From NCBI GenBank assembly GCA_007026445.1, contig VDMD01000066.1, positions 1 to 64,000 on the forward strand: a DNA stretch of 64,000 bases, in the 5' to 3' direction. The first letter of the stretch is position 1. Each line of letters starts with the position of its first letter. Positions 5,391 to 64,000 of this stretch are shown here, piece after piece. The notes beneath the pieces were generated by a model. That model was not told the origin of the DNA. It saw nothing but the letters and a program-made list of their open reading frames with translations, and ran no database searches. The translations under genes and the position numbers were made by a program. Source of the DNA: Schizophyllum amplum (Eukaryota > Basidiomycota > Agaricomycetes > Agaricales > Schizophyllaceae).

Positions 5391-5436
5391 GAGTACGTCC
5401 ATCTGCGCTCTATGAGTACGTCCATCTGCGCTCTAT
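5391..5436. repeat. 23-bp perfect tandem duplication
   Basis: Two adjacent identical 23-bp units, 5391-5413 and 5414-5436, each beginning GAGTACGTCC. It is non-coding and reported only as a sequence landmark. Confidence 0.9.
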
Positions 5437-5701
5437 GAATAGGCTCTTTGCTGGCACCTGCGCAGTCTCCGATTTCCTCGAATCCTAATATCCAACATGG
5501 GCAAGGTGCCAGTGGCATCCCGAGATGTTGAATCTGGTTCGTCAAGCTTTACTTGTTCGAGTGCAAGTGCTGATATTGCCTCCTCAGAACATCCCGGACA
5601 ATTCCTGAAATATATCAATGTCGACCTGCGGGCCGGCTCATGCGTCGTGGAAGACTACTTACCATGCCGTGCATTTTGGAAGGTTTCTCCCCACATCATT
5701 A

Positions 5702-6236
5702 GAGTGTATTTGCACCGATAAATACCGGGTTTGTATTGCACACGAAAGCTCGAGATATGTATCGAAAACCGAGTTGCTGAATATATCGTGGTGCCCTACA
5801 ACCAGCGCGAGATGCAATACAAGAGGAGGCCAGTATATATTTTCACAGTAGAATATTTCTTCTCTAATTGTAAGCAACCCCGAGACCATCTGCCGTTCTG
5901 GCAGAGGGCCCGCTTGAGGGCGTCGCGTCCGCGGAAGCTCTCCGTGGCCTCACGCACGGAGACACCTTCACCATCCCCTTGAAGTAGCCCTAGATGCCCT
6001 TCCATACGGTGTTGCCCACGGTACGAGTACCGGCTGATGGTGGCAGCGCCGCGCTTGCGCCACGGCTGCATGGCGCGACGAGCTCAATATATACTACGAG
6101 GCCTCGAAATAACATTTTGAGGCCATCGTTCACACTGAGCGACTGCTGGAGTTCGTCCATATTGCATTTCGCGTATATTAGTACAAGAGGCAAAATTCAG
6201 TTGAGAAACCCGGTATATCTCGGTGCAAATACACTC
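5702..6236. mobile_element. MITE-like element with TIRs and TA flanks
   Basis: A 535-bp segment whose ends are inverted: the left end starts GAGTGTATTTGCACCG and the right end is its reverse complement. Similarity continues inward to the ACCGGGTTT motif, about 33 bp with a few mismatches. TA dinucleotides flank both ends (5700-5701 and 6237-6238), as expected from Tc1/mariner-type integration. A weaker internal inverted match (GCGCGAGATGCAATAC against ACGCGAAATGCAATAT) suggests longer, decayed TIRs. No transposase ORF is present, so it would be non-autonomous. Confidence 0.65.
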
Positions 6237-19815: not shown

Positions 19816-22800
19816 CTATATAGATGTGTACATGGCGGCGACCGCCGTTCTCGATCCCAGCCTGCGCAGCCGGCGTACACTGCTCGATTTTCCTTCGTAG
19901 ACAAAAGCCCCGTCCTCGTCCATCCCGTCATAAGTCCAAATGTCTGTATGGCCTTTCCAAATCCGCATCGTAAAGTGGTCAGAACCATGATATATCACAG
20001 CCTTGAGCTTAAAAGATGTGCTCATATCACCAAGCTTCAGGTCAAACGCAATCTGTAGCGCGTCGCCTGGACCCTGCGGAATTCCTACCAATAAAAAAGG
20101 GCAATCTTTCAGCAAAGTAGTATAGGTCATGAGTCTGGAGTTACACGCTCGACATGGGGATACCTCGTCCGACTCGCGGTCGTTGAACCAGCGAGACATA
20201 CTGGTGAGGTACTGGGTCTGTACATTAAAGAAAGGACTGTCGAGGTACACATCGCGACAGAAGTCGCCACTGGGATGCGCGTGCGTAGCATCGACGGGGC
20301 AACAGGACCTGTATAACATAGTGTCTTCATCTGATCGAGTAGTAGTGTACAGCACTGACGGAATATCGACGAAACTCCCAAACATGAACTCTGACGGCGC
20401 GGATGTAGAAAGATAATCTCGAAGCGAATCGCGCACGGTGTTAACTCCTGCGCTAGACAACGTCCCATTCAACAGTCTAGCACGCATAGCGTGTGCAAGA
20501 GACCTCAAGACAGGAGCGTTCTGCGCCTCGAGTCGCGGTAGCCAGTTCGCCGAATCTTCACAAACAATCCACGCAAACATAGATGACACACAGTCGTACG
20601 CACAACTATTGTTATGCCACTTGGCGCCCGAAGTTAACACGGGCATACGCCGCGCCTTGGACACGCGTGCGCGTTTGTTTGGGTTCCCGTCGACAGGTGC
20701 GTTGTGCATGCGCTTACGACCTCCGTCAGCCTTCAACTCACTTATAGGAATGAAGCTATCTTCTGTGTCCCGAGTCGGTAAGCTTCCCTTACCACTCGCC
20801 TCTTGGATTATCTGCCAATCAATAGGGGCAACCTCAATGTCCTGCCACGAGTCGGGATTGATACAGTCCCCAAATTTATCAAATTTCGGTTCTTCTAACG
20901 TCCATCCAAGACTAGGAGGCATTCTAGGGGGATAAGCCTGATCTCCCATCCACCGACGGTATGCCGCGATCAAGTCTTTTCTCCGCGCTCCAAAAATCTC
21001 GTCTGGCAGTGTACCCCAATATTGCATGTATGTTATTTCGTCCAATATCTCCAGCTCCCTGAACTCTTGACGTAGAGGGCCGCTACAGCCGCCCATGATA
21101 TGTTCCGACTTAATATTTCGTAAAATCAAAGTGCGTTCAGATGTACGCCCTCGGGAAAGCGCGACGTAGCAAGCGTGGTGATTGTCCATCTTAGACAAAT
21201 CTACTACGTTGACATCCCGCGACTTTCCTTGTGATGCGTAATCGGTCATAGCAAAGTTTGGAAGGACTTCCACTTGGGTACGCTTCACAGTCACTTGAGG
21301 ATTTTTCTCGGTCCCGTACGGTACGGAACAGACAACTACGTTCGATGTCTTCACGACTGGTACCACATTTTCCTCTAGGCCAGGAATTGTGACTGCAGAG
21401 GGTGGGTCAAGCAGTTTCACGAACAGGACTTCAAGGGTGCGTTGGCCCAGATTTCCGATCCCTTCGTTCCAGTCGACTACCACAGCTTCCTGTCCCTTAG
21501 TCATGGATATCTCGGTTGCTGCGTTGCTCCGGAGCATCACAGGCATGCCACGACAGAGAGATAATTTGCCCGGTATCTTACTTTTGCAAAAAGAGTGCGG
21601 CTGCGCCCAAAGTTCGCGCTGAAGTCTACGGGGTACGGGGAGCTCGGGTGCACCGCGCCTGGTATGAAGTTTGTCTTCCGAGAAGAAGTGTACGAGTTCT
21701 TGTCCTGTCTCCTTCGCAAATCTCTCAACACCTAAATCGTTTATAGCATCCTTGCAGATATTCCACGAAGTAATAACAGAGGCATCTCTAAACACCGGAT
21801 CTGATACGGACAAGCCGTTGATGGGCTTCGCCACCCGGGAGTCAATCCACGCCAAATCCGCAGCGTCGCACGACTTGAACCGTACGTGTTCCAACGCGCG
21901 AAGCATTCGTAAATCGTCCGAGGAACCACCCCGTTGTCTGTGATTTTCTCGCAGAATCACAACTACTGTGACGTAGTGCCATAATGCCTTTCCCAAAGCG
22001 TCTTTTTGACTTGCAGCATCCGCGCTGTATCGCCCAACTGTCCGACTGTACAAAGACCGATGTTCGCCTCCAATGACAGGAGGGAGCTGCCCAAAGTCCC
22101 CCCCGAAGATAATATGTTTACCACCGAAAGGCGCATCAGACACAGCATGAGCATCGCATATACCCTTACTTATATCATACATTTGTGAGCAAGCGACCAT
22201 GGAAATTTCATCCAAGAGATAGACGTCTGTACCCATCGTTCTCTGCTTCACTTTCGCTTTTGCGAGCGCTGACATTTTTCCCTTGCGCATGCCGTTGATC
22301 CCGAGCACTGAGTGATACGTTGATCCTCCAACCAAAGCCGCGGCAGTACCTGTAGGCGCCATGACTATAAACTTGTGATCTTGCCCATAGCTTGTGATTA
22401 ATTCTTGGATCGCTTCAAATACACGAGATTTACCCGTCCCACCCAATCCTCCGATGTACATTATCAGCTGACTGGCGCCCGGGGTCAGTACATAATTGCC
22501 GACAATTCGAACAGCGCGCTCCTGATCTTCATTCAAACCGTGACGACACACAATGTCGTCTATCAGCAAAGGGCACTCGGGTGGGACATAGCGTCTCGTC
22601 AGCATCTTCTTGTTCACAATCGCCACGCCTGAGATAGGCGCACCATTGCTCAAATCAACTCGCTTCTCAACGCCAGATCCACTCATAGTTGCTAACGCCT
22701 TCGCTCTGGCATCAAAAACGTCTGCACTCCATTTACTGACCGGCTTGTTAATCGTGACACGAGCGGTTGGAGGCAGGTCTTTCGCGTACCCGCCAACATG

Positions 22801-25800
22801 CCAGTCATCCTTCATCATACGTGTCTGCATCTCCTCAAATGCGACCCGACTGCTTTTATAATATTCATTCTCATTTACGCCTTCCGCCTCATATTCATCC
22901 AAGGGAGATGTCACATTTTCCAAAGCGTCTTGTGCAACATTCTCGTTGTCAATGTCAGCAGCTTCCTTCGCAGTGAAAGGCAAAAGAAAGGTAGGTTCCT
23001 TGCCGGCGAGCAGCTGCATTCTGAAATCATCTCGACCGTCCAAGCACTCCCATTTGAGGTTAAAAAAGAGCATTAATAGCCGCTCTTCTGCAGTGAAAGG
23101 GTGAGAGTCAAATGCGTCCTCCCAGGTTTCTTCTTTAGACTTCAGGTCACTTCCCGTTCGCCACGGCTTGAAAAGCATCAACATAACCATGATGTACTCG
23201 TCACGGTTCGGGACGTCCCCTCGGGGAAGAGTACGCATGAAGTTCAACACCAGATCGGGATTGACAGGACTGAGTTTCATGCAATGCGTGCTGGCCATCG
23301 AATGGCCTTTCAGGAACGCGAAATGGTTAGTCTTCAGCGCTCTCACTGGAGGTATACCGAATTGGTGTACACCATTGTCTTCGACATCTTCTCCGCCATC
23401 GGAAGCGATGTACGTGTCATCTGTGGGTAGATTTAGTGCATCGACATCAATCGACGGTTCATCCATTGCGACGTCTCTCTTGGCGCCCTCCCATTCGTCT
23501 TCATCTTGAGATTCAGCATCGTGACATTCACTGTCGAGTTCGGTTTCTCCCGTGGCACCGTCCAGGTACAGGTTTGTAGCGGATGTTCGAGCAGTTTGTG
23601 CAGCACTAGTGTCGGTCTTGCCCCTTTTCCCTGTCGATCGCTCAGCGGTGTTTAGAGTCATGCGAGAACACCGTTTGGCGAAATCGTAAAGCTTCATACC
23701 TTCCAACTCGCGGCCCCGATAAATATAATTCTGGGCCTCGGATACTCCTATAATTTTCCCGTGGCTTTTCATTATGAGTACATTGTCCGAAGACTGGGGT
23801 TCAGCCGCGTCGAGCCAACAAGACCGTACAGATTCGTAGTATGGAGTCCAAAAAAAAGGCTTAAATTTGTGAGAGGAATAGTGATCGCCGTTGCCAAGCA
23901 GGTATGCAGCAATCATCGGAGACCCCAGCTCCATTTTCGTAGCTAATTTGTTCACTAAACGGGTCATAAGCTTTTGCGCGGCAGCCTTCTCTTCCATACT
24001 ACCTGCCGTCAAATCACTGCTTTTGTCGAAGACAGACTTGATCACGTCAAAAATGACATGTGTCTGTGGCCCCATCTTGGTAATGTATTCTGTTATGTAG
24101 TAAACAATGTGGTTCACAGCGCTTCCAGATAGCAGAGACGTACAGTCATGATTCGAACGAAGGAGATACGAGATCAGCACACACACGTCGTTCATCCAGG
24201 CTTCCATATGCTTAAAACGGGTTGCGCCGGTCTCGGGGTCTATCTTGCTCTCGCTGCGAACCTGACGTGGCATGCGCGCCTTGCATACTCCATATTTGTT
24301 GCTGCGACAATACTTAGGATTACACGTGTGGAGATTGGTACGCAGAAGAACATCATCACTCTCGTCAATAAATCGCATGCGCCATGACGAAGTGGCGATA
24401 CATTTCTCGCATCCAGCCTCTTCGCATCTACAGTATTCTTCAACTGGAATGACGGGTATACTGTACGTGGGGTCGATGTAAGTAGCTTCCTTCTTATTGT
24501 CCTCCAATTTCTGTGTCACTGTATCTCTGTCCCCTCCCGAGAAACCTCCTTGATGACACGACTCCGCGTATGTGATCATAGCCTGACTGAAGGCAGATTC
24601 GACATTAATTATCTGGTCTCGGATTTGAGCTGGAGTGGGCGCGTTCTTGATCCACACAAGCATATGAAGATGCAGAGTGAGGCGCCCTTGCTGTTCGACA
24701 GTCCCGTAGTACGCACTTGTCTCACCGAAAACACCCCGATGGCCCGAATCCACGCCTAAAATATGTTTGATGAATGCTTTGACCATAAAATCGAAAAATC
24801 TCGCACCCGCGACAGGATTGTTAATGACTGTACGGAACTGACTGTCTCTCCCCAGGCGATCAGAGGCGAGAATGTCAGGTCTAAAAACGGTTTTAGAGTC
24901 CGCAAAATATAGGCAGATCGGGTGCTTGATATCCGTCGGGGCGATGGTGATGTACCAAAGAGGAGACCCAACCTGCGCCATTAGAGACCAGATTTCTGAA
25001 CGCATCCACTTTCTTCCTGCCGCAGTGCCCTGGACATTTCCAGAAACGGTCTCCAAGTCTCTGATGACCTTCCAACAATTCTTCTCGTCGTCTGTCTCTG
25101 CTAGCACTCGCTCTCCGTTAGCCATCCGTGTAGCCATGGTCTGCAACACACTCGACTTAAGGGAGAGCAACCGACGTGCAACATCCGGAAAAGCGCTTTT
25201 CTTCGATACTAGGAAGCTTTTGGTAGTTGTTTGCTTGACTTGACGGTGACTGAATACCACGAAGGGAAAAGCATGATCAGTCTGAAATCGCTTATCATAG
25301 TACATCAATAAATGGCGACAATGCTCATCCTCCGTTACGCGCATACGTGATACGTCCGAGTCAGTTGTACAGCCTATTCCTCCGAAACCGTAGGGGAAAC
25401 ACCAAGGAAACATTTTAGGCAATAGTTGAGGGTTGTGAAACATACTTTCTGGTTTGACGCTACGACCCACTCGCAATATACCTTTGTTACCGTGAAAGTG
25501 TGCAATAGCCATGCCTCTCAACTGATCCTCCGACATTGTCTCTAGGTCCTCACCTGTAAGGCCATAAACCGCAAAAGGGAGATCTCCAAACTCCACTCCT
25601 TGCGCGTCGTCCGTGTTGAAGCAGCTTCTGCCCTCGGCCGCAATATTGCCGGTAAGGTTTTCCATATATTCTACGGTAACAGGCGGGTAACCATCTGAAT
25701 ATTGAGCAAGATGCTCTTCAGAGATTTCGATATTAGCGTAATCAGGATGATTAAGCTTCAGCCATTCAAGAGCGCGTCGTACATAGGACCTTCTCACTAA

Positions 25801-27039
25801 CAGAGGGCTGAATTTATCCGTGTTGAATCCGTCCACACCGGGAGCATCAGGACCAGTGAACATGATAGCGAGCACTTCGCTCAGGTCTTTTCGATTTGGT
25901 GGCAGTTTCTCGTACACCTCGGCAACAGGCGATTGGAAACACACTACGTGGGCGATCATTTTACGACCCGCACCGGCAACTCGAACGAAGGAAGTATTGC
26001 ATCGGACGGCCTGAACCAACAAACGCTCAACAAATCGGAGAGAACTTAACTCTAGCGGTACTTCCCCCAACCACAATTTATTCGCGAGAGCAAGAGGCGG
26101 GACGTCCCCAGCGTATAAAGGACCTCGGCATTTCGAGCATATTTTGTCACATCCGGGTGCAAGTATAGGCTTATCAACCGCTTGCTCGACTGTTCCTCCG
26201 CGCGGTAGGGCCACGGGGTTGATCAATACGCCTAACAGGTTTCGCATTTCGCTCATGTTCCGCATATCCGTCAGCGGTCTTAACTCGCCGCACACCGCGC
26301 ATCCAGCTTCTTCAACGTTCATGCAATCCTTCACAAAATCGGATGCTATCCTATGCATCAGTTCTTCCGAAGGAGGATCAGGAGGAAAAGAGGCCTCCTT
26401 CGACTTGACGTACGACTCATGTCTTTTCAAAGGAGACACCGGCTTGCGTTTAGCGTTGTATGTGCGGTGCTTGTTCCGGACCGAGGGTATCAGCTCAAAC
26501 ACGCATACACATTTCTCGCACCGCTCGCACGAGTGGTCCTGCAGAATAGCTGACAAGATCTCGAGCGTCATGCCCCGCCGACGAGCTGAAGTATGATGAG
26601 CCGCACAGATCTCGAGCACGTCAGACAGCGCCAAGTGATTGAGAAATCGTTCAGGAGACATTCGGACAAGTACCCGATTATCCATATTGAACTTCACCGT
26701 GTCCGACGCATACACTACGCGTACAAATCGGAAGGCCGAATCATCACTCAGTAGAATACCCGGGTCTTTTTCAACTACGAAATCGGCCAGCATGGATCCT
26801 GGTACAGACTTGCGCCCTCCTCCTAACAGTACAAGGCATCCTCTGGACCAATCATATTTTATTTTTGCACGCACGCTCATGTCGCAGGCTGCGACAACTG
26901 AGGTCGAAGTCTCGCGTAGCCTAGGTAGAACCGAACCCTTGCGTAGGCAATCACTCAGCGCGACGTGTTGACTCATGCGGTACAGAATAGGGGCATTACT
27001 GAGGTGCAGTGCGGACAACGTATCATGCAATACAATCAT
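19816..27039 (-). CDS. Helitron-type Rep/PIF1 helicase with C-terminal peptidase-like domain
   Basis: Single uninterrupted exon of about 2,407 aa from the first ATG at 27039. In order: a Cys-pair region near residue 246 (CAVC, then CSKC) followed by a DUF6570-like segment; a Helitron-like N/Rep domain with an HUH-type motif LHLHMLVW near 785 and paired tyrosines YYITEYITK near 980; an acidic linker; a PIF1-type superfamily-1 helicase with Walker A GGLGGTGKS near 1530, Walker B LLDEISM and FGGDFGQLPP; and a C-terminal module with HNNSCAYDC near 2146, a CRAC pair and YHGSDHFTMRIW near 2350. The last module resembles the Cys and His boxes of ubiquitin-specific-type cysteine peptidases. All Rep and helicase motifs look intact, so it may be active as a rolling-circle transposon protein. 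Helitron ends were not identified. Confidence 0.85.
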   Translation of the reverse strand: MIVLHDTLSALHLSNAPILYRMSQHVALSDCLRKGSVLPRLRETSTSVVAACDMSVRAKIKYDWSRGCLVLLGGGRKSVPGSMLADFVVEKDPGILLSDDSAFRFVRVVYASDTVKFNMDNRVLVRMSPERFLNHLALSDVLEICAAHHTSARRRGMTLEILSAILQDHSCERCEKCVCVFELIPSVRNKHRTYNAKRKPVSPLKRHESYVKSKEASFPPDPPSEELMHRIASDFVKDCMNVEEAGCAVCGELRPLTDMRNMSEMRNLLGVLINPVALPRGGTVEQAVDKPILAPGCDKICSKCRGPLYAGDVPPLALANKLWLGEVPLELSSLRFVERLLVQAVRCNTSFVRVAGAGRKMIAHVVCFQSPVAEVYEKLPPNRKDLSEVLAIMFTGPDAPGVDGFNTDKFSPLLVRRSYVRRALEWLKLNHPDYANIEISEEHLAQYSDGYPPVTVEYMENLTGNIAAEGRSCFNTDDAQGVEFGDLPFAVYGLTGEDLETMSEDQLRGMAIAHFHGNKGILRVGRSVKPESMFHNPQLLPKMFPWCFPYGFGGIGCTTDSDVSRMRVTEDEHCRHLLMYYDKRFQTDHAFPFVVFSHRQVKQTTTKSFLVSKKSAFPDVARRLLSLKSSVLQTMATRMANGERVLAETDDEKNCWKVIRDLETVSGNVQGTAAGRKWMRSEIWSLMAQVGSPLWYITIAPTDIKHPICLYFADSKTVFRPDILASDRLGRDSQFRTVINNPVAGARFFDFMVKAFIKHILGVDSGHRGVFGETSAYYGTVEQQGRLTLHLHMLVWIKNAPTPAQIRDQIINVESAFSQAMITYAESCHQGGFSGGDRDTVTQKLEDNKKEATYIDPTYSIPVIPVEEYCRCEEAGCEKCIATSSWRMRFIDESDDVLLRTNLHTCNPKYCRSNKYGVCKARMPRQVRSESKIDPETGATRFKHMEAWMNDVCVLISYLLRSNHDCTSLLSGSAVNHIVYYITEYITKMGPQTHVIFDVIKSVFDKSSDLTAGSMEEKAAAQKLMTRLVNKLATKMELGSPMIAAYLLGNGDHYSSHKFKPFFWTPYYESVRSCWLDAAEPQSSDNVLIMKSHGKIIGVSEAQNYIYRGRELEGMKLYDFAKRCSRMTLNTAERSTGKRGKTDTSAAQTARTSATNLYLDGATGETELDSECHDAESQDEDEWEGAKRDVAMDEPSIDVDALNLPTDDTYIASDGGEDVEDNGVHQFGIPPVRALKTNHFAFLKGHSMASTHCMKLSPVNPDLVLNFMRTLPRGDVPNRDEYIMVMLMLFKPWRTGSDLKSKEETWEDAFDSHPFTAEERLLMLFFNLKWECLDGRDDFRMQLLAGKEPTFLLPFTAKEAADIDNENVAQDALENVTSPLDEYEAEGVNENEYYKSSRVAFEEMQTRMMKDDWHVGGYAKDLPPTARVTINKPVSKWSADVFDARAKALATMSGSGVEKRVDLSNGAPISGVAIVNKKMLTRRYVPPECPLLIDDIVCRHGLNEDQERAVRIVGNYVLTPGASQLIMYIGGLGGTGKSRVFEAIQELITSYGQDHKFIVMAPTGTAAALVGGSTYHSVLGINGMRKGKMSALAKAKVKQRTMGTDVYLLDEISMVACSQMYDISKGICDAHAVSDAPFGGKHIIFGGDFGQLPPVIGGEHRSLYSRTVGRYSADAASQKDALGKALWHYVTVVVILRENHRQRGGSSDDLRMLRALEHVRFKSCDAADLAWIDSRVAKPINGLSVSDPVFRDASVITSWNICKDAINDLGVERFAKETGQELVHFFSEDKLHTRRGAPELPVPRRLQRELWAQPHSFCKSKIPGKLSLCRGMPVMLRSNAATEISMTKGQEAVVVDWNEGIGNLGQRTLEVLFVKLLDPPSAVTIPGLEENVVPVVKTSNVVVCSVPYGTEKNPQVTVKRTQVEVLPNFAMTDYASQGKSRDVNVVDLSKMDNHHACYVALSRGRTSERTLILRNIKSEHIMGGCSGPLRQEFRELEILDEITYMQYWGTLPDEIFGARRKDLIAAYRRWMGDQAYPPRMPPSLGWTLEEPKFDKFGDCINPDSWQDIEVAPIDWQIIQEASGKGSLPTRDTEDSFIPISELKADGGRKRMHNAPVDGNPNKRARVSKARRMPVLTSGAKWHNNSCAYDCVSSMFAWIVCEDSANWLPRLEAQNAPVLRSLAHAMRARLLNGTLSSAGVNTVRDSLRDYLSTSAPSEFMFGSFVDIPSVLYTTTRSDEDTMLYRSCCPVDATHAHPSGDFCRDVYLDSPFFNVQTQYLTSMSRWFNDRESDEVSPCRACNSRLMTYTTLLKDCPFLLVGIPQGPGDALQIAFDLKLGDMSTSFKLKAVIYHGSDHFTMRIWKGHTDIWTYDGMDEDGAFVYEGKSSSVRRLRRLGSRTAVAAMYTSI

Positions 27040-27604
27040 GGCTGTTCTCACAGATGGCGGAGTTGCGCAAACTAACCGAAATGCAAAGGATGAAGATTGG
27101 TAGGAGGCAACTCCCGAGGAGCAAAAACATAATATTCTCCAATAGGAGTCGCGATGATACAACTGCTTTGCGAAGGCAGCAACGACCAGAATACCTGGAA
27201 TTCAATCAGCCCAACACACAGCCAAAGACGACAGGCGCACTCACCCCCTGCGTTCATGGTATACGTCGGCTCATCGGTGCAGAAGCCATACGCAGTCACT
27301 GAAGACTTCATCGGAAGGGCGAGGTGATGCCCTAATGCACACAATCAGCGACAAACGCAGAGTGAATCAGCCACTGCTTACGTTCGTCCCAGATAATACG
27401 GTTGAGGTGGTTACGGGCCATAGCTTGGTGAACCATAGATGGGCAGCGAGATGGGCGAAAGCAAGACGCAATTAAGAAGAGCAAAAAAAAAAAACCCCCC
27501 GATCGTTCCGCGACGTACGGTCGGAAAGCTTCCGCCCTCAACCTAGATTCTACAAATGATCGAAAACAACCAGTATATTTATCAGGATATGCCCATCATC
27601 CTCG
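27040..27604. other. Intergenic, helicase upstream region
   Basis: Between the helicase ATG and the stop of the orphan gene at 27605. It contains an A12-C6-type homopolymer run near 27483-27500 and only short ORFs. If the helicase belongs to a Helitron, its 5' TC terminus should lie here or beyond; I could not recognise it. Confidence 0.45.
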
Positions 27605-44581: not shown

Positions 44582-47500
44582 ATGGGTGCCCAGTCCTTCT
44601 CCGATGCTGAATGTGCTGCTCCTCCTTTCACCCACCTTCCTCTGGAACGCGGGTGCTCTTTCTCTGCCGCCGCTGACTTCAATGTCGCCCACAATCCCGG
44701 CCATACGTGCTTCGCGTACGCTGATGCGGACGGCGTCGTGCGCAAGATCACGTATCTTGAATTCGGACGCGCCATGCACCGAGCGGCGCACGTTCTGCGC
44801 CCAGTGGGACAGGGACAGGACGGGGCTGTCGTCGCATTCATTGCTCTATCCGACACTCTGGTCTATCAAGCTGTCGTAACTGGGCTAGTGAAGGCCGGCC
44901 TGGTTGTACGTCATGCCACCACATACCTGAATCGATCGCCCTAACATACATACTTACTAGTCTCGTGCCCATCCGTTCGCACCGCCACTGCACCCACAAG
45001 GATCCACCGCATAGCGTGGCACACGTTTTTCGGTATTCGGGCGGTATTGAAAAGTGAAGAGCAGTGAGCGGAGCGAACGTCTGGCGCATTCGGCGCGGGT
45101 TAGCTAGGATAACGTCATGGATGAAATTTAAATTGCCAGGGACGCTCTGGACCGCGTTCTTTGCCTGTTGCGTTCGCGCGTGGCCTGATCTCGCGAGTGA
45201 TCCTGCGCGCCTATCTGTCTTCTACATCTCTTCGTCGTCGCCAATATCATCGCGTCGTCCTCATGAATGACCATGAACGTGACAACGCTACTAGCTCTAC
45301 AGACTCTGAAATGTCATATCACCTCTCTTCACCCACGGAATCCTCAGGCTCTGATTCAGAACTCAATGCGGCGGCGGAGGCGGCACGCCACCCATCGTTG
45401 TCGAACAAGGATGACGCTTGGGGCGATGAGGATACGCTGCCCTCCGCATTCGATGCCCTACTTGTTGGCCGCGTGAAGCGTGCTCTCGCAGCCATCGAGA
45501 ACGAAGGATTCAGCCTAGCCGAGCTCGTCGATCTCGTCACCTGGGGCAATCGCGCGTGTACAAGCGACCCTCGCGTCCGAGGTGTTCGCCGTGCTTTCAT
45601 GCACAGTGACCTGCTTCCGACGATGCTGCAGAGGTGGGCTGATCCGCCGCGCGTCAGGAAGGGCACGCAACCGGAAGGAGGCGCCACAGCTGTCAAAGAG
45701 GCTGCTTTCGCCATAGTCCTGGAGCAACTCACTCAAGAACTAGCGAGCGTCTCCTCCAAAGTGCTCCGGTCTCCTGCAAACCGCGAGCTGTCTGCAGAGG
45801 AGCTGACTTCTATGCGCTTTTCGGAACTTATTCCGCGAGTGCAACATATCGCTCCGCAGGCATGGAGTCTTCTGCGACAGTTGGGATACAGTGCACGACA
45901 GGAAGTGCATAATACAAGAAAAAATCCTGACAAGGTATGTTGCCATACCGCTACGACATATAACATTCGCTCATGGAATTGGACGCGTGCAGGTCGTATT
46001 CACGGTCATCAGTATGCTCTGTTACACACGGAACAAGAACTGTGGCCGATATCAAAAGGCACTCAGCATATACGTCAAGTTCAAAGGCTTATCCGCGAAA
46101 GCATTCGATACTCTCCATGCGTCGGGCCTCGTCATGAGTCACAAATGGACGGGGAACGCGGTAGACAAGATTTCGAAGCGGGCGATGGACGAAGTCGCTG
46201 CCATGATGGAACAGAATCATGCCTGGCTCATCTCCCACGACAACATCCAGCTTCCCTTTCGCGTCTACTCGCAGCGCAGCGATCACAACACCACGTTCGG
46301 AAACGGCACTGCGGCCACGGTCTACTTCAAGCGTGGTGTGGTACCTCCAGGCCCCGAGGCCAACGCTGCACTCAAGAGCGGTCGTGCGAAGGGTCTTAAG
46401 GACAATCTCACAGCAGCCGACATTGGCGACTTAGAGAACGCAGCGGCTCCACGCATCCGCACCCACGCCATCTGGGAAATTCTCCGCTTTCTCCTCGAGG
46501 CCCCCGAGTTCGACTTTGCCACATATTTCGACAAATCCAGTGCTGCTGTGCAGCGGCCCGCGCATAGTCAAGCGCTACCGCACGGCAAGGAACATGCCAC
46601 GCTTCAGCGCATGCTTGGAAGCGTCGACATCGCAGAAGCAAGCTACGAGGATAACGAGCGTCTCATCACCGAATGGCTTCGCCAGTTGGGTCTTTCGGGG
46701 CCGGAGAAGGAGAAGGAGATTGGCCTGAAGCAGGTGATCTTCTGGGTTGGCGATCAACTAACGGTCGACCGCCTGCGCGGCCTCTACAAGTTCCATGCCG
46801 AGGAGTTCAACGCATTCGACCGTCTTGACTGGCTCATTCCCATCTTTGGCTGGCTACACCTCATGATGGCATACGCAAACTCTCTCCACAAGCAGTATCT
46901 CGGCACTGGAAGGGGCTATGGTCTCTCTCGTGTCTTCGACGTGCTTGCTCGCAAAGGCCTTCATCGGGTGCAAACCAAAGGCATCTTCTACCATGATCTC
47001 AACGAGGCTATCTACCACGTCACGGAAGCGCATCTACGTGTCGACTGGAAGCTCGTCACTGGTGTAGACAACCTTGCCGAGCTCCGTTCTTTGTCTGGCG
47101 AGGAGCTTCTGAAGCACGCAACGGAGATTCACGACCGGTGCGCGTCAGGTGCAGCGCTTGCAGACCTGGATGAATTACCGGAGGATGAGCAGGACGACCA
47201 GCTACGTCAGGTCTACATGTGGAATCGAGATGCGCTGCGCTTCGTTGTACTAGGAGAGGCTCTCAAGCGCGGTGACGTGGGGACAATGGAGGATATGCTC
47301 CCCTTTCTCGCCTATCGGTTTTCGGGTGGCAACAACAACAAATACTGCATCGAGATTCTCGAACTCTTGCAAGGCATTCATAAGGAATGGCCCGACGATG
47401 TTGTGTACGCAATCTCCAGCTTAATCATCCGTTGCTTAATACCTGTTTTGTAGCGACTTCGTCCGTGAGCACTGCTGGCTCGTCAACTTCTCTGGGACCC

Positions 47501-50500
47501 CGACAGGGTTCTGTCCTGTCGACCAGGCCCAAGAGCACAACATCAAGGACATCAAGGAAGGTATCTTTTGTCTTCATTGTTTCTTCATTGATAGAGAAGT
47601 TGCACGCAGGTTACGTATCGCTCCGAAGGCCCAAGCATTGACTGGAAGTTCCTCAAGAAGATGCATCCAGCGATTCCCGTCATCCATGAGCTTAGCAAGC
47701 ACATGGAAGAAGAGTTCCGAACTTACACGCGTGGCTTGAAGCATACCGTCCCGAAGAAGGACCAAGACGTCAAGAAACTAGAGGATACGTATTCGGAGGC
47801 GGGCATACACAAGCGAGAGCCTGGTCGTGTGCTGAACAAGAAGAGACCGGATACAGCAGAGGATTTTCTAGCCAAGGGCGCGGAGGGGTTCTACAAAGTC
47901 CTAGACCGCTGGCAGGCTAATCGGAACTACGAGCGACGTACGGACGAGGACTGGGAATTTCATAGCGCAAACGGCTCTCCTGCACCGTCAAGTGAATCGG
48001 GTGCAAGTGGTTCAGATGAAGTCGAGTCAATTCACTTACAGTAGGGAGGGCAAATGAGTATATTATCTATGAATTAAAAGGATCGTCGTTGGCAGCAGTT
48101 GAGTAGTAAGGATGAAAGTTGCCGGTACTGGAAGAAGGGCCGGGGCTGCTCTGAGCAGTTCCTGGCCTAGTAAGATGGCTATAGAATGGACTAGGTGTAG
48201 TATAAGTTGACATATATGGAGTATACGGACGACGTGAGGGCGTAGGAAGGTTATACGGCAAGGGCGTGGGGAAGGAGTAAGAAGGGTACGGAGTGCAGGG
48301 TGTGCCGCTCTGGTGATGTACGAAAGCAGGGTGGTGCGCAGATGCAGGAGTGAGTGGTGTACGGGGCGACATAGGTGGTGGTACAGCCATTGCGTAGCGA
48401 GTTTCAGCTGCAAGGCTCCCTGCGTAGAGTGGCGTCGACGGCGCGAGCACTGGGCGAGGAGAGGCGTATTTGGCAGCGCGTTGGGCAGCTGCCGCATCAC
48501 GCGCAAGCGTAGCGGCCGCCTTCGCGCGCGCCTTCCGCTCCCTCTCCTGCGTGGCACGGATTTTCTCCTCCGCCCGCTTTCGGGCCTTCTCTGCCTCTGC
48601 GATGGTCCGTTTCTCCAAGCGCACCGTCTCCTCCTCTTGCCGCTTCTGCTCGTGCTTCTGTCGCGTTTGCAGGGCTTTCTCCGCGCGCCGGAGGAGCACC
48701 TCGCGGTCACGTTCCTCGACAAATCGGCCTACAATGTCTTCAATGGCCGCAATGACTGGCCCACCGTGTTTTGAGGCGTATATCCAAGGCGGGTCCAAGC
48801 ATCGAAGGTCGTCAACCGTTCTAAGCTTGTTGTTCGAGGCAATCTTATTCAAGATCTTGTCGGGCATGAGCGCGGTTGCCGTCAGGGTGCTGTACGGGTA
48901 TTCGAGTTTGCGTGTCGCCACACGCCAGTCTTGGAGGGCGGTGCGCACGCGTTTGAGTAGCTCACCACGACGTGCTGGGTTGCTGGGCTGCATGGGGCGC
49001 TTGCCGTTCTTCTTTGGCGTTGAGGCGGGTGTCACGTGCGGAGATTCGACAGGTGTCGACGGTCTTGTAGGTGGATCTATAGCCCCCGACAGCTCGTTCG
49101 GTAGCGGTGGAGCTGTTCCTTCGCAGACGTCGCAGCACGGGCCAGTAGGGGCTAGAAACTGTCAGCAAGCTAGGACCTCGTTTTCAATCTCAAAGCTTAC
49201 CTTGACGGCCAGGAGGATTATCGAAGTACTTGTCGCTCGTCGTGTGGCGACATACCTTCGAGGCGATGTAGGTGCGGAGAGCTGGGTCGATCTCCTTAAC
49301 CCAAACCTTGCTCGCTTCGTCGGTGGCGGCGACGGCAGTATCGAGGACAATAGAGCTCTCTCCGATGTCCTCGACACCGTTATCCCCTTCGTCACCACTG
49401 TCCACGTCGAGCTCCTCATCTGAGTCCTCTTCGTCCTTCCCCTTCTTCTTCCGCTTCTTCTGTTTTCTGAAGACCGACTTTTCCACGAGCAAGATTGCAC
49501 GTCCATGAAGTGTGGTGTCGCGCACGCCACGCCCAGCGCGCTGCAGGTAGACCGAAAGTGACTGGGGAACACCCAGCTGGATGACCTGCATGATGTCGGG
49601 GATATCGGCACCCTACACGACGTCAACGATGTCAAGAACAAATGCACAGAGTTTGCGTACCATTCCAGCCGCTTCTGTGGCAACGAGTATCCTCGTGCTG
49701 CCTCGGCGGAAGCGCCGCATAACCCTGCGCTTCGACTTGTCCTTCCTTACCGCGTGCAAGAAGTCGATGCGCTTTCGCAGACGCCGCGGAAACAGCTTGC
49801 GGATCTCGCGACATGCTTCCTGCGTACCCACGCGGGAATTAACGAAAATGAGTGTCTTGGGTATGTCTTTCGCAGTCCGCGCGTTGGTTGGCAGTAGCTC
49901 CGCGAGCGCGGCGTAGTCGTGCGCACTCTCGACGAAGCGAACTTCTTGCGTAATATTCGGGCGATCGTTGCCGAGGTTGACGAAGTACGAGTCGTGCAGA
50001 TCGATGTTCAACTCCGCGCAAACTTCATCCCGAGCGGCAGGGGGTAGAGTAGCTGTCGCGGCTAAGAATGGGATGGTGGAGGGGAATAGCGCGCGAAGCT
50101 TGTGTAGCATGGCGTAGTGTTTCCTGAAGTCGCCGCCCCATTGACCGATGCAGTGTGCTTCATCGACGGCGACTGTCGTGAGATGTCGCTGAAACTCCGG
50201 TGTCGAGAGGTATTGACGAAAAGCCGGAAACTCGAGACACATCTCCGGGGAAGTCAAGATTGCACGGTACTTATGCGCGTTCAGATCCTGAGTTCAGTCA
50301 GTTCTCGAGCGTAGCTCCAAAGCGGGTGTACGCACAGATTGAACCGTCGCCCATGTATCCCCATTGACTGCGACCGCGGGGATGCCCGCTACGGTGAAGC
50401 GATGGGCCTTTGAACATGGTTAGCGCGTCAGGGAACAAGAGCAAAGACAGAGCGTCACTTACCTGATCCTCCTGCAAAATCTTCAGAGGCGAGATGACCA

Positions 50501-53500
50501 GGATAGTTCTTTGCTCGTCGTATTTGAGGGGAAGCATGAATGGCATGGTTTTGCCAGCGCCTGTGCCCGCGATCAGGACGCTGTCGAGGCCGAGCAGCAG
50601 CGCTTCCGTAATATCCAGCTGCCATTCGCGCGGCTCATAGCCCCATGTCGATCGGAAAGCGCTCGAAAGGTCGCTACGAGTCGCTTCGTAGTTGTACCCG
50701 CGCTTTCTGAATGCGCGGTCGCGCGCGTCTTGAAGGTTGGCGGCTGAGCGCACTTTGTTGACTTCGTGGTGGGAAGCCGCAAGCGACTGCGCTGATGTTG
50801 ACATCACGGGGTGTCAAGATCACGTGAATAAATAATAAGGAAGGAAAGACAGCGGGACGGACGCCCACAGCTGTATAGCAAGCTAGAAAGACACTGGAGG
50901 AGAACAATGGTCGCGTCGCGACCGGCACGCGAGAGCGTCCCTGGCAATTTAAATTTCATCCATGACGTTATCCTAGCTAACCCGCGCCGAATGCGCCAGA
51001 CGTTCGCTCCGCTCACTGCTCTTCACTTTTCAATACCGCCCGAATACCGAAAAACGTGTGCCACGCTATGCGGTGGATCCTTGTGGGTGCAGTGGCGGTG
51101 CGAACGGATGGGCACGAGACTACATACTTACTAGCCCTTTCCGATATCCGCTCGTCTCTCCGCGCCCGCCATCGCGAACCTTTTGCGCACGACCGGCTCC
51201 CGCCGCCTCATCACGACGCAGTACAGTCTGCGCGCCCTTGTCGAGTCTGTCAAGGGAGAACTTGGCGCGGACTATGCTCTCGAAATCGAAGAGGTACCAG
51301 CGCTGAGCGTGCTGTACCCACATCTCGCGGCGGAGACAGCCGCAGACGCGTTCGAAGCCTACCCGGATATGGAATCGACAAAGAAGCCGGACGACTTCAT
51401 GATCTACATGCACTCATCCGGCAGCACCGGCTTCCCCAAGGCCATCGGTCAGACGCGCGCTGGCATGGCAGGATGGGCACGGCTTGGTGCGTCCCTTCAC
51501 TCGCGCATGACCAGCTTACTAAGCGATGGCTTTCCAGCGGCCGTCACCGATATTCGCCGCTTCAAGCCGCGCCCTCTCGTCGCGGCGCACATCCTGCCGC
51601 CCTTCCACGCGATGGGTGTGTTCTCTCAGATTCTCACGCCGCTTTATGGCGGCGCCGCGACAGCAGTCTTTGAACCGGTAGCGAAGGTCAGTGAACGTGG
51701 TGATCGATATGGTCATCTCATATGTATCTTTTGCAGACCCCGCATGACGTGCCGCCGCCACCGACGCCGGATCATCAGTTATCGGCCGCGCGCGCCTGTG
51801 GGTGCACGGTGCTAGTCATGGTGCCCGCCTATCTGCAGATCTGGGCCACGGATCCCGATGCGGTGGACTTCTTGAAGAGCCTGCAGGTCGTGGTATGTTC
51901 GGAATGCATCACCTGTCCGCCGTTGAGCGTTTGCTGACACACTTACTAGGGCTTTGGCGGTGGCCCGCTGAGCGACGCTGCCGGCGACACGCTCTCCGCT
52001 GCGAGTGTCAAGCTGCGCTCGATGTACGGCTCGACCGAGGCTGGCGTACCGACACATTTTGCACCTACCAGGGACGAGGATTGGAAGGAATGGCGCTGGA
52101 TCGAGCTGGATCTCAATGCGCAGCTCGCCTGGGAGCCCCAAGGCGACGGTTCCGAGGAGCTGATTATCACGGTGAGTAGTTATTACACGAGCCCTCATAT
52201 TCAGTCAAATAACGCACTCACGAAATACGCAGGCCAACGAGCGGCATTGGCATCAACCTGCGGTGAAGAACGTGCCCGCCGGATATGCGACCAACGACCT
52301 ATTTGAACGTCACCCAACCAAACCGTACTTGCAGAAGATGTAAGGACAGTGATCATTCGAATCCAATGCATGCCTCTAACGTGGCGCTCCAGCGTCGGCC
52401 GCAAGGACGACGTTATTGTGCACTCCACTGGCGAGAAGACCGTTCCCGCGCCGATGGAGAATGTTGTACTGGCCAGCCCTCTGTACGCTATAATTCTCAC
52501 AGAGAATGGGAAGAATGCTTACTGGGATTACAGGGTGAGGGTTGCTATCATGTTCGGCCGCGGGCATGACGAGGCGGGCATTCTCATTGAGCCTGCACCC
52601 GGGCATGCGGTCGACGTGAACGACGACGCGCAGCTTGCAGCGTTCCGGAACGCCGTCTGGTGCGTATCTATGATCAGTGCTTCGAAAATGCGAGAGCTCA
52701 CTGATTCTGTCGCTTGCAGGCCGGTCATCGAGGAGGCGAACCGCGGCGCACCTGGGTACAGCCGCATCTTCAAGGAGCTCATCCTTATCACGCATCCCGA
52801 CAAGCCGCTGCCGCGCACTGAGAAGGGCACGGTGATGCGGAAGCTTGCCCTTCAGGTGTACGACGACGAGATCAAGAAAATGTACATGCTCCTCCTGTCC
52901 TTCTCCTATGCGCTGGCTGATGAGGGATCGCAGTTACGAGATCATGGAGAGCCACGCGGCGACCGGGGAGGACGGTGTCCAGCCCCCCGCGACCTGGGAC
53001 GTCCCCGATGTGCGGGACTGGCTTTCTGCCCAGGTCCGCGACATCACGGGTCGCGACATGGATGCCTCGGCCGACCTCTTTGAGCAGGGCTTCGACAGGT
53101 GAGTCGAGCTACGTCGTCCTGTCAGTACATTCTCTGATCAGGGACAGTCTCAATGCGACCGTCCTCCGCCTGCGTATGCTTGGTGGCCTCAAAACGAACG
53201 CGACGACGCCATCGGCCGCGCACGCCGTCTCACAAAACGTTGTGTACGAGCACCCGACCGTCGAGAAGCTCGCCTCTCTCCTCGCCAAGCTCGTTCGCGG
53301 CGAGACTACAGCCGCACCTGCGGCCAGCGCGCAAGAGGAGATCATCGCCATGGCGGCGAAGTACAGCGAGGGTCTCCCCGGATACGTCGATGCTGTCACT
53401 TTGCCGAAGTACGTGCCATCGACGAGCGCAGCGCCGCTGCAGCTACCGGCCGGTGTTCTGTTGACGGACACGACGGGCAACCTGGGCGCGGAGCTCCTTG

Positions 53501-54728
53501 CCATGTTCCTTGCGGACGACCGCGTGAGTCGAGTATACACGCTGGAGCGGGCGGGGTCTGTGCCTGCACGCGAACGCCAGCGAGCGCGCTTCGCGGACAA
53601 GGGCCTGGACGTCGGGCTTCTGGAGTCTAGCAAGCTCGTCGCGCTCGCAGGCGATTTGTCCGAGGAACGCCTCGGGCAGAGCGAGACGGTGTACGCGGAG
53701 GTATGAACCTTGTTCTTCTTCAACAAATGGAATCTGACGGAATTCTCGTAGATGCTGGACGTCGTGAACGTCGTCTGCCATATTGCCTGGAGGCTCGACT
53801 TCAATCTCGGCGTCAACGCCTTCAAGAGCAGCATTGGGGGCACGCGGGCGCTCGTGGACTTCGCGCGCCAGGCGCGTCAATCGGACAACCTGCGCTTCAT
53901 CTTCACCAGTTCTATTGCGTCTGCGCTTGGGTGGGATGGCGCCGCACGGGGGTCCGTGCCGGAGGAGCTGATCGACGATGTCGGTGTCTCGGTCGCTGGC
54001 GGCGGGTATGGGCAGAGCAAGTACGTCGCCGAGCGAGTGCTGGCGGCGAGCGGGATTGCCTTCACCTCTATGCGAGTCGGTCAGGTGAGCGGCGGGAAGC
54101 CACGCGGCGCGTGGGCCACGACGGACTGGTTCCCGATTCTGGTGAAGACTAGTCTGGCGCTCGGCATGCTGCCTGATGATGAGCAGGCGAGCTTTTTCTT
54201 GACCGGGCGAGGCATGCAATTTGCTTACACACTCTCGCAGACGGTGGCTTGGCTGTCAATGGACGCTGTCGCGGGCACCGTGGTTGACGCGGTGTTCTCC
54301 GAAAGGGCCCCTTTGCCTTCGCACAACGTCGTGCATCCGCGCCCTGTGCCGTGGACGCAGATGATCAACAATGTCCAGAAGTCGCTGAAGAGCATTCTGC
54401 AGCGCGACGTGCCCATTATCCCCTTCCGCGAGTGGTGTGCGAAGCTGGAGGTGGCTGCGGGAGATCCTACCGTTGATGTTCGGGACATGGTGAGTGGTAA
54501 TATGATTTCTAGTCGATTTATGGACTCATGCATATTGTGCAATAGCCCGGCGTCAAGCTCCTCCAGTTCTACCGCGGCATCAGCTCCGGCAGTGTCCAAG
54601 GCATGTCCGAGTATGCGACGGAGAAGATGCAGGCGGTCAGCGAGACGCTTCGTACCGTCCCGCCGGTCAGCCAGAGCGATGCGGATGCGTGGGTGACTTA
54701 TTGGACGGAGAGCGCGCTGTTGCCTTGA
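44582..54728 (+). CDS. NRPS-like adenylate-forming reductase, left copy, interrupted by transposon in intron 1
   Basis: A-T-R architecture: an adenylation domain (HSSGSTGFPKAIG, YGSTEAGVPTH), a thiolation domain (LFEQGFD then S-LNATVLR after splicing, the Ser being the phosphopantetheine site) and a thioester-reductase domain (YGQSKYVAERVL). Such enzymes activate a carboxylic acid and reduce it to an aldehyde or alcohol. Exon 1 is 44582-44905; intron 1 is 44906-51134 and holds the 6.16-kb element plus its target duplication; exon 2 begins at 51135 (CCCTTTCCG). Two lesions relative to the right copy: the reductase NADP motif reads TDTTGNLG instead of TGTTGNLG, and a late intron donor is GC (54187) instead of GT. 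No stop or frameshift was found in the parts checked. Function is doubtful. Confidence 0.78.
44948..44958. repeat. Target-site duplication, left
   Basis: ACATACTTACT, identical to 51122-51132, flush against the terminal inverted repeats of the 6.16-kb element. Confidence 0.9.
44959..45148 (+). repeat. Terminal inverted repeat, left (190 bp)
   Basis: Starts AGTCTCGTGCCC and ends GCCAGGGACGCTCT. It is the reverse complement of 50932-51121 with no mismatch seen. It contains no obvious sub-repeats. Confidence 0.92.
45263..48044 (+). CDS. DUF6589 protein, candidate transposase
   Basis: Exons 45263-45934, 45993-47404, 47454 to about 47565, and about 47612-48044, giving roughly 875 aa. The third junction could not be placed in perfect frame, so a small boundary error or frameshift is possible there. 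The start at 45263 (MNDHERDNATSS) is the first ATG in the open frame. I recognise the DUF6589 family by HDNIQLPFR, WVGDQLTVDRLRGLYKFH, FGWLHLMMAYANSLHKQYLG, NKYCIEILELLQG and DQAQEHNIKDIK. D307, D478 and E722 sit in the three most conserved blocks and would suit a DDE-type active site (inference). The N-terminus is Ser/Glu-rich and the C-terminus acidic. It is the element's only transposase candidate. Confidence 0.85.
48067..50804 (-). CDS. RecQ-like ATP-dependent DNA helicase
   Basis: Starts at ATG 50804 (MSTSAQSLAASHHEV) and has several short introns, for example after ILQEDQ and after GMVRK-type sequence near 49625. Superfamily-2 motifs in order: WQLDITEALLLGLDSVLIAG then TGAGKT (motif I, about residues 80-86), VAVDEAHCIGQWGGDFR (II), LAATATLP (III), LIFVNSR (IV) and ILVATEAAGMG ... 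YLQRAGRGVRD (V-VI). The DEAH box and arginine finger are intact. A KKRKKKGK-acidic linker and a Cys-pair region (CCDVCEGT) follow, then a long charged coiled-coil (EEETVRLEKRTIAEAEKARK) and a Pro/Ser/Tyr-rich tail. It lies inside the 6.16-kb TIR element, convergent with DUF6589, and would act as its accessory helicase. Confidence 0.88.
50932..51121 (-). repeat. Terminal inverted repeat, right (190 bp)
   Basis: Reverse complement of 44959-45148, no mismatch seen; ends CACGAGACT at the element boundary. Confidence 0.92.
51122..51132. repeat. Target-site duplication, right
   Basis: ACATACTTACT, followed directly by AG|CCC, the acceptor of intron 1 of the left NRPS-like gene. Confidence 0.9.
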
Positions 54729-58400: not shown

Positions 58401-59409
58401 GCGGCGGCGGCACGTCATGCGGGGTCTGCAAGAAATAAGTATGAGATGCAGCCGTATCGATCACCTCGTTCACTGACCCTCGCCACCGGTTCAAAGAGCG
58501 CGATTGCGGCCCCTCCATACAGCGGCACAATAAGCTGAATGTATATAGCGAACGCGTGGAAGGGCGGTAGTATGTGCGCCGCGAAGAGAGGGCGAGGGGT
58601 GAAGCGACGGACGTCGGTGACGCTCGCTGTCAAGCCATCATTCAATACGCGCGTGGTGAGGAAGTAAACACAGGAAGGAACGCACCGAGCCGTACCCATC
58701 CTGCCATGCCAGCGCGCGTATGACCGATGGCCTTCGGGAAGCCGGTGCTGCCAGATGAGTGCATGTAGATCTCAAAGTCGTCCGGCGTCTTGGTCGATTC
58801 CATATCCGGGTAGGCTTCGAACGCGTCTGCGGCCGTCTCCTCCGCAAGATGCGGGTACAGCACGCTCAGCGCAGGCACTTCGTCGACCTCGAGGGCATAA
58901 TCCGCGCCGAGCTCGTCCTTGACGGACTCGATCAGCCCGTGCAGACTGTATTGCGTCGTGACAAGCCGGCGTGAGCCAGACGTGCGCAGAAGATTCGCGA
59001 TCGCAGGAGCGGAAAGACGAGGAGATATCGGGAAGGGCTAGTGGGGATGTCAACGCTAGCGATTCGAGTATGTGTCGGCCTGACTCACGACGAGGCCTGC
59101 CTTCACCAGTCCAGTTACGACAGCATGGTAGACAAGAGTGTCGGATAGAGCGATGAACGCGACGACAGACCCGTCCTGTTCCTTTCCCGCTGGGCGCAGG
59201 GCGTGTGCCGCTCGGTGCATGGCGCGTCCGAACTCGAGGTATGTGACCTTGCGTACGACGCCATCCGCGTCGGCGTACGCGAAGCACGTATGGCCGGGGT
59301 TGTGAGCGGCATTGAAGTCGGCGGCGGCAGAAAAGGAGACACCGTGTTCCAGAGGAAGGTAGGTGAAAGAAGGAGCACATTTAGCATCGGTGAAGGACTG
59401 AGCACCCAT
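55449..59409 (-). CDS. NRPS-like adenylate-forming reductase, right copy
   Basis: Same A-T-R architecture as the left copy but uninterrupted. Exon 1 is 59409-59089 (107 codons); intron 1 is 51 nt (59088-59038); exon 2 starts at 59037 with CCCTTCCCG. Motifs: HSSGSTGFPKAIGHT (AMP binding), YGATEFGVPTH, FEQGFD|S-LNATVLR (carrier Ser), TGTTGNLGAELLA (NADP binding) and YGQSKYVAERVL (catalytic Tyr/Lys). About 14 exons assemble to roughly 1,050 aa with GT-AG introns near 50-65 nt. It resembles basidiomycete adenylate-forming reductases that reduce aryl or amino acids; substrate not predictable here. All catalytic motifs are intact, so this is probably the functional copy. Confidence 0.85.
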
Positions 59410-59458
59410 GGTGAAGTTGTTGCAGTCGTCGTAGCACTTTCACTTGTAACATCTGCGC

Positions 59459-59467
59459 GTATATAAG
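59459..59467 (-). promoter_or_regulatory. TATA box of right NRPS-like gene
   Basis: On the minus strand CTTATATAC about 50 bp upstream of ATG 59409, identical to the element in the left copy. Confidence 0.7.
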
Positions 59468-59689
59468 GGTGGGGGATAAGGCAGGCTCAGTAATGCACCT
59501 TCCGGTCAGCACCGTCAGGCGACGGAGTCGGGCAAGCAGCGTCTGCCGAAGCATTGAGCAGATTCCAAGGATAGTAGGCCGCTGTGGTTCATCTTACCTC
59601 AGGCCTCGTGGATTGTCAGCACTGGCTCACTTGCGCGATATTCCGTGCCCCGCAAGAGGTCATATGGACCCGGCATTGGGCAAGCGCCA

Positions 59690-62543: not shown

Positions 62544-64000
62544 TTAATCCGTAGAGGACGCGCTCTGCGCTAGCTTGCGAGCTCCGCGCGTTTGCCATTC
62601 CTGTAGGATCCGGGGTGCATTTGCGAGCTCTTTTGCGGTCAGCCATTCATCGTGGTCCTCGGAAAATCCTTTCCAGCGTACCTTGTAGATACGGTGGCGA
62701 CGGCCTTGGCGCTTTCGTCCCCATTTCTCGTCGATAATCCTCTCGACTTCGACGGTCTCGGCGACCTCGAAATCTCTCCGATTCAACGGTTTCTTCGGAC
62801 GTTCACCGAATTCTGGCGGAGATTTCCTGTAGCGTTCAAGGTGAGCGATATTCAGGATGGGGTGAAGGCCATATGAATCCGGCAAGCGCAATTGATACGA
62901 GACGGGACTTAACTTGCGTATGATCTCGAAGGGCCCATCGTACTTCATCAGTAGCTTCTTTCCCCGGCCCTTCTCTTTCCGAAGAAGCTCTAAGGAATGA
63001 GGGTTCAGTACGACGAAGTCACCCACTTCGAACTCACCTAGGGTTCGTTCGTGATCATAATCCTTCCGTTGCGCAACTTGTGCTAGCAGAAGTGCGTCCT
63101 TTGCACGGGATCGTGCCTCTTCAAAGCCGTCTACCATTGCCTGCGCTGCTTCGTCAGAGATTGCGATCTCACCTTTATCCCCCCGTCGAACAGAGATGTC
63201 GCGCGTTGGTCGAGGAATGATGTCAGGTGACTGATCCGAGAGTAGCGCGGCACTCGTGATAGGTTGATAACCGCGCAGGAGGTACGCAGGCGAGAACCCT
63301 GAGCTGGTGTGAGGCGACGTGTTGTAGGACAGCGCTAGTGGGTCGAGTAATTCCGACCAATCATCGCGAGATGGGCCGATGTACGCTCTGATAGCAATTT
63401 CGAGGTACTGATTGACGATTTCGGTCTGTCCGTCCGCCTGCGGATGATGAGCCGTGGTCAATGAACGCTTCATCCCCATCAGTTGACAAATACTCGTCCA
63501 AAAACTGCCGGTCCATCGTGTGTCCCGATCTGATATTACCTGTATGGGGAGCCCGTAGTCCTTGACCACATGGTGAAAGAAGAGGGCTGCAGTCCCTTCG
63601 GCAGTAAGCGAGGTGGTACAGGGGATGAAAATTGCGTACTTGGTCAGCTTATCAACGATAACGAGTACATTGTCATACCCCCCGGAGCGCGGAAGTTCGG
63701 GGATGAAGTCCATGCTGACCACTTCGAATGGACGGGTTGGTATTGGGATCGGCTGGAGGAGACCGACGGGCCCGTGTCTCCGAGGTTTGGACTTCTGGCA
63801 GATGTCGCATGTGCCGACAAAGAGCTTGATGTCGCGCGACATTCTGGGCCAATAGTAAATGCTCGCAATTCGATTATACGTCTTGTAATACCCACCGTGC
63901 GCCGCCTCGGAGATGGTATCATGAACCTCAGACATGACGCTTGGACGGAGGGAGGAGGGGACGCATAATCGATTATTGCCATTTGAATCCTCGAAGTACA
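62544..64000 (-). CDS. Ty3/gypsy pol, integrase with chromodomain (partial, runs off window)
   Basis: The open frame continues through the window end, so the start and the protease, reverse transcriptase and RNase H parts lie outside. An integrase H2C2 zinc knuckle (VHDTISEAAHGG ... TCDICQKSK) is followed by the catalytic core with D in MDFIPEL, D in VISDRDTRW and E in GQTEIVNQYLE. Then come a GPF-like region (KYDGPFEIIRKLS), HPILNIAHLERY and a C-terminal chromodomain (VERIIDEKW, YKVRWKGFSEDHDEWLTAKE, ILQEWQ). This order is typical of fungal chromoviruses. All three catalytic residues are present and no stop interrupts the visible part, so the element may be recent. Confidence 0.93.
   Translation of the reverse strand, partial: YFEDSNGNNRLCVPSSLRPSVMSEVHDTISEAAHGGYYKTYNRIASIYYWPRMSRDIKLFVGTCDICQKSKPRRHGPVGLLQPIPIPTRPFEVVSMDFIPELPRSGGYDNVLVIVDKLTKYAIFIPCTTSLTAEGTAALFFHHVVKDYGLPIQVISDRDTRWTGSFWTSICQLMGMKRSLTTAHHPQADGQTEIVNQYLEIAIRAYIGPSRDDWSELLDPLALSYNTSPHTSSGFSPAYLLRGYQPITSAALLSDQSPDIIPRPTRDISVRRGDKGEIAISDEAAQAMVDGFEEARSRAKDALLLAQVAQRKDYDHERTLGEFEVGDFVVLNPHSLELLRKEKGRGKKLLMKYDGPFEIIRKLSPVSYQLRLPDSYGLHPILNIAHLERYRKSPPEFGERPKKPLNRRDFEVAETVEVERIIDEKWGRKRQGRRHRIYKVRWKGFSEDHDEWLTAKELANAPRILQEWQTRGARKLAQSASSTD

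Follow-up and report, generated by a model that had tools for sequence, protein, structure and literature searches.

A helicase-encoding DNA transposon of Schizophyllum amplum, likely of the AcademH lineage, with DUF6589 as its very probable transposase

The 64,000-nucleotide stretch of Schizophyllum amplum contig VDMD01000066.1 analysed here (hereafter, the window) contains a complete two-gene DNA transposon bounded by terminal inverted repeats (TIRs). One of its genes encodes a DUF6589 protein and the other a RecQ-like helicase of superfamily 2 (SF2). It is very likely a complete transposon of the AcademH type, in which DUF6589 serves as the DDE (Asp-Asp-Glu, RNase H-like) transposase, with the helicase as a partner of long standing. 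Very probably, elements of this kind have already been described, and the new point is the assignment of DUF6589 as transposase.

The inverted arms of the window element measure 191 nt each, are 100% complementary and start with 5'-TAGTCTCG. A preliminary description, made from the sequence alone, correctly reported them as identical and gave their length as 190 bp. A direct repeat, TACATACTTACTAG, spans both element ends, so the length of the target-site duplication (TSD) is not fixed by the window alone and is decided by copies in the same genome. The 11-bp TACATACTTAC, which occurs twice in the window, both times at the element and nowhere else, had been put forward as the duplication; we rejected it, since other same-genome copies carry 9 bp outside their TAG...CTA ends (14 of 15 delimited copies and relatives). 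Accordingly, with symmetrical TAG...CTA ends, the TSD of the window element is CATACTTAC (9 bp), and the bounds 44959..51121, which rightly placed a transposon here, are corrected to 44958–51122 (6165 bp). The TA before and the TAG after CATACTTAC are coincidental matches to the element ends. The genes are separated by 22 bp and lie about 114 and 127 bp from the TIRs, too little space for a third gene to fit outside the pair. The transposon has perhaps been active recently.

The plus-strand gene encodes DUF6589 (PF20231, E = 1.5e-90), and it converges on the minus-strand helicase gene, as originally noted, with the two ending at 48044 and 48067, respectively. The helicase model is an 845-aa open frame across five exons, in which Pfam recognised DEAD (E = 9e-20) and Helicase_C (E = 3.9e-19) domains but neither a zinc-binding nor an HRDC domain. 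One open-frame piece matched recQ_fam (E = 1.9e-26), and the top match among PDB sequences was WRN (E = 6.4e-40, residues 1–628 of the spliced model), with bacterial RecQ and BLM as further relatives, bearing out the RecQ-like identity first proposed. The protein also contains the stretch DEAHCIxQWGxDFR, which we take to be typical of RecQ.

Searching the genome from which the window derives with the TIR returned at least 27 matches, 20 of which pair into ten two-ended copies, including that in the window; seven one-sided or partial matches (L012, L021–L024, L026, L027) were left out of the count. An exact 9-bp TSD lies outside TAG...CTA in nine of the ten, and in 14 of 15 when all delimited copies and the diverged relatives described below are counted. 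These 9-bp duplications share no sequence. Eight copies are shorter (153–2539 bp), and because seven of them have 9-bp TSDs, they suggest movement in trans. The longest, C157 (2539 bp), retains element positions 1–1204 (98.9%) and 4828–6165 (94.1%) and thus derives from a close relative by internal deletion; the other seven span 153–1660 bp. No Pfam match at an E-value of 0.01 was obtained for six of seven open frames scanned from six short copies, the seventh being a fragment of the element's own helicase, and in the five short copies above 1 kb, C157 apart, the longest open frames match no Pfam family. Unrelated transposases, for which the preliminary description had proposed a check, were therefore found in none of the eight shorter copies (seven frames from six scanned). 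A close copy, C245a, is stretched over 35 kb by insertions (C245:84466–119511; L048, L059, L060, L049), with its outer 9-bp TSD intact and its exons free of stops in the parts compared.

DUF6589 was found at 10 places in the genome, nine of them independent; C77 was removed from the independent count, its right flank being the same as that of C1, and a repeat search at E = 10 added just one piece, at a known place. A match to the window helicase adjoins DUF6589 at all nine independent loci, within 3 kb at eight and at 6.0 kb at C245a, where insertions split the pair. For a randomly chosen position, the probability of a helicase match at 4 kb or less is about 0.0024. A RecQ model was the top NCBIfam family in each of the seven neighbours scanned (the window's own and that of C245b excluded); as these are pieces, their scores predictably stay under the cut-offs set for full-length proteins. 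Seven of the nine pairs are convergent, as in the window, and those at C299 and C7, mutual closest relatives in both proteins, are divergent. Five helicase places have no DUF6589: C157, the deletion copy, together with C260, C183, C255 and C35.

To delimit diverged relatives, we scanned the flanks of six other loci for a TAG whose preceding 9 bp are repeated behind a CTA on the opposite side. Exactly one such pair was found at each of C1, C79, C299, C223 and C7, and when the right flank was shuffled by mononucleotide, no more than 2 of 200 runs at any locus produced a match. At these five loci the TSD was itself the search criterion, so they constitute weaker evidence than the TIR-defined copies; the boundaries of C245a were set by TIR homology. 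TAG ends with a 9-bp TSD are thereby present at seven of the nine independent DUF6589 loci. The termini are alike beyond the three letters searched (TAGTCTC, TAGTCTG, TAGACTCG, TAGGCTCG; TAGACCGG and TAGCCTGG at C223), and inverted flank matches at C79, C223, C299 and C7 comprise 20–89 exact nt against a shuffle maximum of 14–16, whereas that at C46 does not exceed chance (13 against a shuffle maximum of 17). A long inverted repeat at the C1 relative was considered as a TIR and rejected: two inverted tRNA-Thr genes (L063:360–442 and 8951–9033) flank this relative and mimic a long TIR, and the TSD-bounded element (2071241–2077889) lies inside the pair.

Both genes are under purifying selection. 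Between the window element and C245a, the ratio of nonsynonymous to synonymous divergence (dN/dS) was 0.038 for DUF6589 (bootstrap 0.025–0.057; 641 codons) and 0.168 for RecQ (bootstrap 0.119–0.241; 680 codons), with no stops in the parts compared, which exclude DUF6589 exon 1, the helicase start and the last part of helicase exon 5. The two genes have also travelled together: their distance matrices across eight loci correlate with r = 0.95, a value reached in 14 of 40320 permutations, and with C245a dropped r is 0.89, reached in 14 of 5040. Synonymous divergence between the window element and C245a is uneven, amounting to 0.10 in the helicase ATPase exons (49661–50804), 0.41 in the later helicase exons and 0.49 in DUF6589, a pattern suggesting that copies have undergone gene conversion or recombined.

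Pairwise identity of DUF6589 across the eight compared loci is 18–49%, except between the window and C245a (96%). The first D of a candidate catalytic triad, in DN[IV], and the E in D..[QI]E[HY] are kept at all nine loci, and the second D, in GDxLT or a close variant ([GA]Dx[LY][TS]), at eight. These patterns were drawn up after viewing the alignment, with chance DN matches in other frames set aside. Because DUF6589 keeps this DN / GDxLT / QE[HY] triad, it is very probably a DDE transposase, as judged from residue conservation. Pfam classes DUF6589 as a family of unknown function, and the literature searched contained no mention of it (PF20231 as a search term returned only an unrelated optics match). 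No relative of DUF6589 was confirmed in viral contigs, prokaryote contigs or plasmids.

Under an AcademH-type reading, the transposase would bind the TIRs, cut at the TAG ends and link these to the two target strands at positions 9 bp apart. Unwinding by the helicase, either at the ends or over the joined target, might then allow the staggered gaps to be opened and filled, with host repair producing the 9-bp duplication. In this scheme the helicase would occupy the place of the AcademX nuclease, and the short copies with the same TIRs would presumably be mobilised in trans.

Several observations weigh against the AcademH-type reading with DUF6589 as transposase. The role given to the helicase in TSD formation is one that we infer. 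As regards the boundaries, the two-ended copy C241 has no TSD, and no TAG/9-bp pair was found at C46, a longer flank included, or at C245b with flanks of 1.8 and 2.7 kb. The helicase match at C223 is the weakest (E = 1.6e-4). Within the triad, the second D was not recovered at C245b, the third acidic residue was picked by eye, and the D of a GDxG motif is likewise invariant in the eight aligned loci. No transposase family came up for DUF6589 in Pfam, even with the threshold relaxed to E = 10, PDB sequences searched by profile yielded a single chance match only, and a single-sequence structure model of window positions 45993–47402 was poor (mean predicted local distance difference test score, pLDDT, 40.8), leaving the fold unconfirmed. 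Finally, the last DUF6589 intron (47560–47609) loses the frame with GT-AG sites and keeps it only with a non-GT donor; C245a has the identical arrangement and offset, so it did not arise by a mutation confined to the window copy.

The flanks of the element, when joined, align with 58741–59343 on the minus strand at 84% identity over 607 columns, continuously through the insertion site, which upholds the earlier report of an empty site in a duplicated copy near 59040. The sole break at the unoccupied site is a 4-base gap immediately to its left, and the counterpart of the TSD has diverged. The site near 59.04 kb is an unoccupied paralog and not an allele. The transposon interrupts a gene at 44582–44944 / 51183–54693, with AMP-binding pieces on either side (the left one below the Pfam cut-off) and an NAD_binding_4 reductase piece farther along; a diverged paralog of the interrupted stretch lies at 58464–59493 on the minus strand. 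Elsewhere in the window, 19819–27162 holds a Helitron, with an unbroken 2448-aa open frame containing DUF6570, Helitron_like_N and PIF1 domains, and 62547–63935, with Integrase_H2C2, rve (below cut-off), Tf2-1-like SH3 and chromodomain matches, resembles the terminal part of a chromovirus-type Gypsy retrotransposon. Coordinates of the transposon's features are given in Table 1.

Table 1. Features of the window element and its unoccupied paralogous site.
Feature	Position	Strand	Details
Left TSD	44949..44957	no strand	CATACTTAC, 9 bp
Left TIR	44958..45148	+	191 bp, begins TAGTCTCGTGCCC, 100% complementary to 50932-51122
DUF6589 gene, probable DDE transposase	45263..48044	+	exons 45263-45934, 45993-47404, 47454-47559, 47610-48044 (modelled)
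RecQ-like SF2 helicase gene	48067..50804	-	845 aa modelled; exons 50463-50804, 50336-50407, 49661-50287, 49201-49612, 48067-49151
Right TIR	50932..51122	-	191 bp, finishes CGAGACTA
Right TSD	51123..51131	no strand	CATACTTAC, 9 bp
Unoccupied paralogous site	58741..59343	-	84% identity to joined flanks

The assignment means that DUF6589, whose function Pfam leaves undefined, very probably acts as a DDE transposase, and it names candidate residues for catalysis. The element, its TIRs identical and its TSDs exact, also offers a clean system for asking why some transposons carry a RecQ-like helicase of their own, and whether the helicase sets the TSD length is directly testable with it. A more far-reaching proposal, which we regard as rather unlikely, is that DUF6589–RecQ elements constitute a distinct superfamily, or else a deep half of Academ that has gone unrecognised, defined by 5'-TAG ends and 9-bp TSDs. 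In such a group the element-encoded RecQ helicase would be an obligate transposition factor setting the 9-bp stagger, and DUF6589 genes in general would supply the transposases.

In a related alternative, the element would belong to a separate, unnamed DNA transposon superfamily that gained an SF2 helicase independently and resembles AcademH by convergence. No comparison made here ties DUF6589 to the Academ transposase, and the Pfam and literature results given above leave room for this view. We nevertheless deem it unlikely, as helicase type and TSD length are both those reported for AcademH in the portions of the published accounts available, and a double convergence would be a coincidence. 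That DUF6589 and RecQ are passengers in a TIR element mobilised by another enzyme draws on the short copies, which lack the complete pair and have the same TIRs and TSDs, so that movement in trans is likely. This is very improbable given that the pair occurs together at 9 of 9 independent loci, with TAG...CTA ends and 9-bp TSDs at seven, despite DUF6589 identities of 18–49% in all but one pairing, that both genes are under purifying selection, and that they are so tightly spaced; the preliminary suggestion that they are machinery rather than cargo is sustained.

Kolobok transposons have TTAA as their TSD. A KolobokH element, that is, a Kolobok transposon with a helicase, is hardly credible here: KolobokH is likewise named as a helicase-bearing DNA transposon of fungi in the available part of one paper (PMC10799480), but the window element and its relatives have 9-bp TSDs of varied, unshared sequence instead of TTAA.

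The window element is, by helicase type and TSD length, likely a member of AcademH, a lineage of Academ transposons that Kojima reportedly described in 2020 (Mob DNA 11:15, doi 10.1186/s13100-020-00211-1). In the portions available of two papers, AcademH is the Academ lineage encoding a helicase (PMC10045372, PMC10799480), its TSDs are of 9 or 10 bp against 3 or 4 bp in AcademX, a difference tied to helicase versus nuclease (PMC10045372), DEAD and Helicase_C domains are tied to AcademH and KolobokH, and AcademH occurs at low copy in Basidiomycota, Ascomycota and Mucoromycota (PMC10799480). On these accounts, the initial view that no such element had been described does not hold. The window element encodes a helicase with both domains and, like its relatives, has a 9-bp TSD (14 of 15 copies and relatives), so that it resembles AcademH as a low-copy, helicase-encoding DNA transposon of a kind reported from Basidiomycota; this likeness concerns helicase, TSD length and copy number. 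AcademX, which belongs to the same superfamily if the filing under AcademH is right, differs, in the portions of the sources available, in its TSD of 3–4 bp against 9 bp here and in having a nuclease where the window element has a helicase. The AcademX nuclease is of the XPG type. Helitrons are rolling-circle transposons that are not known to have TIRs or TSDs. They also encode a helicase, and the one in the window has a helicase of PIF1 type, in contrast to the RecQ-type helicase, TIRs and TSD of the element described here.

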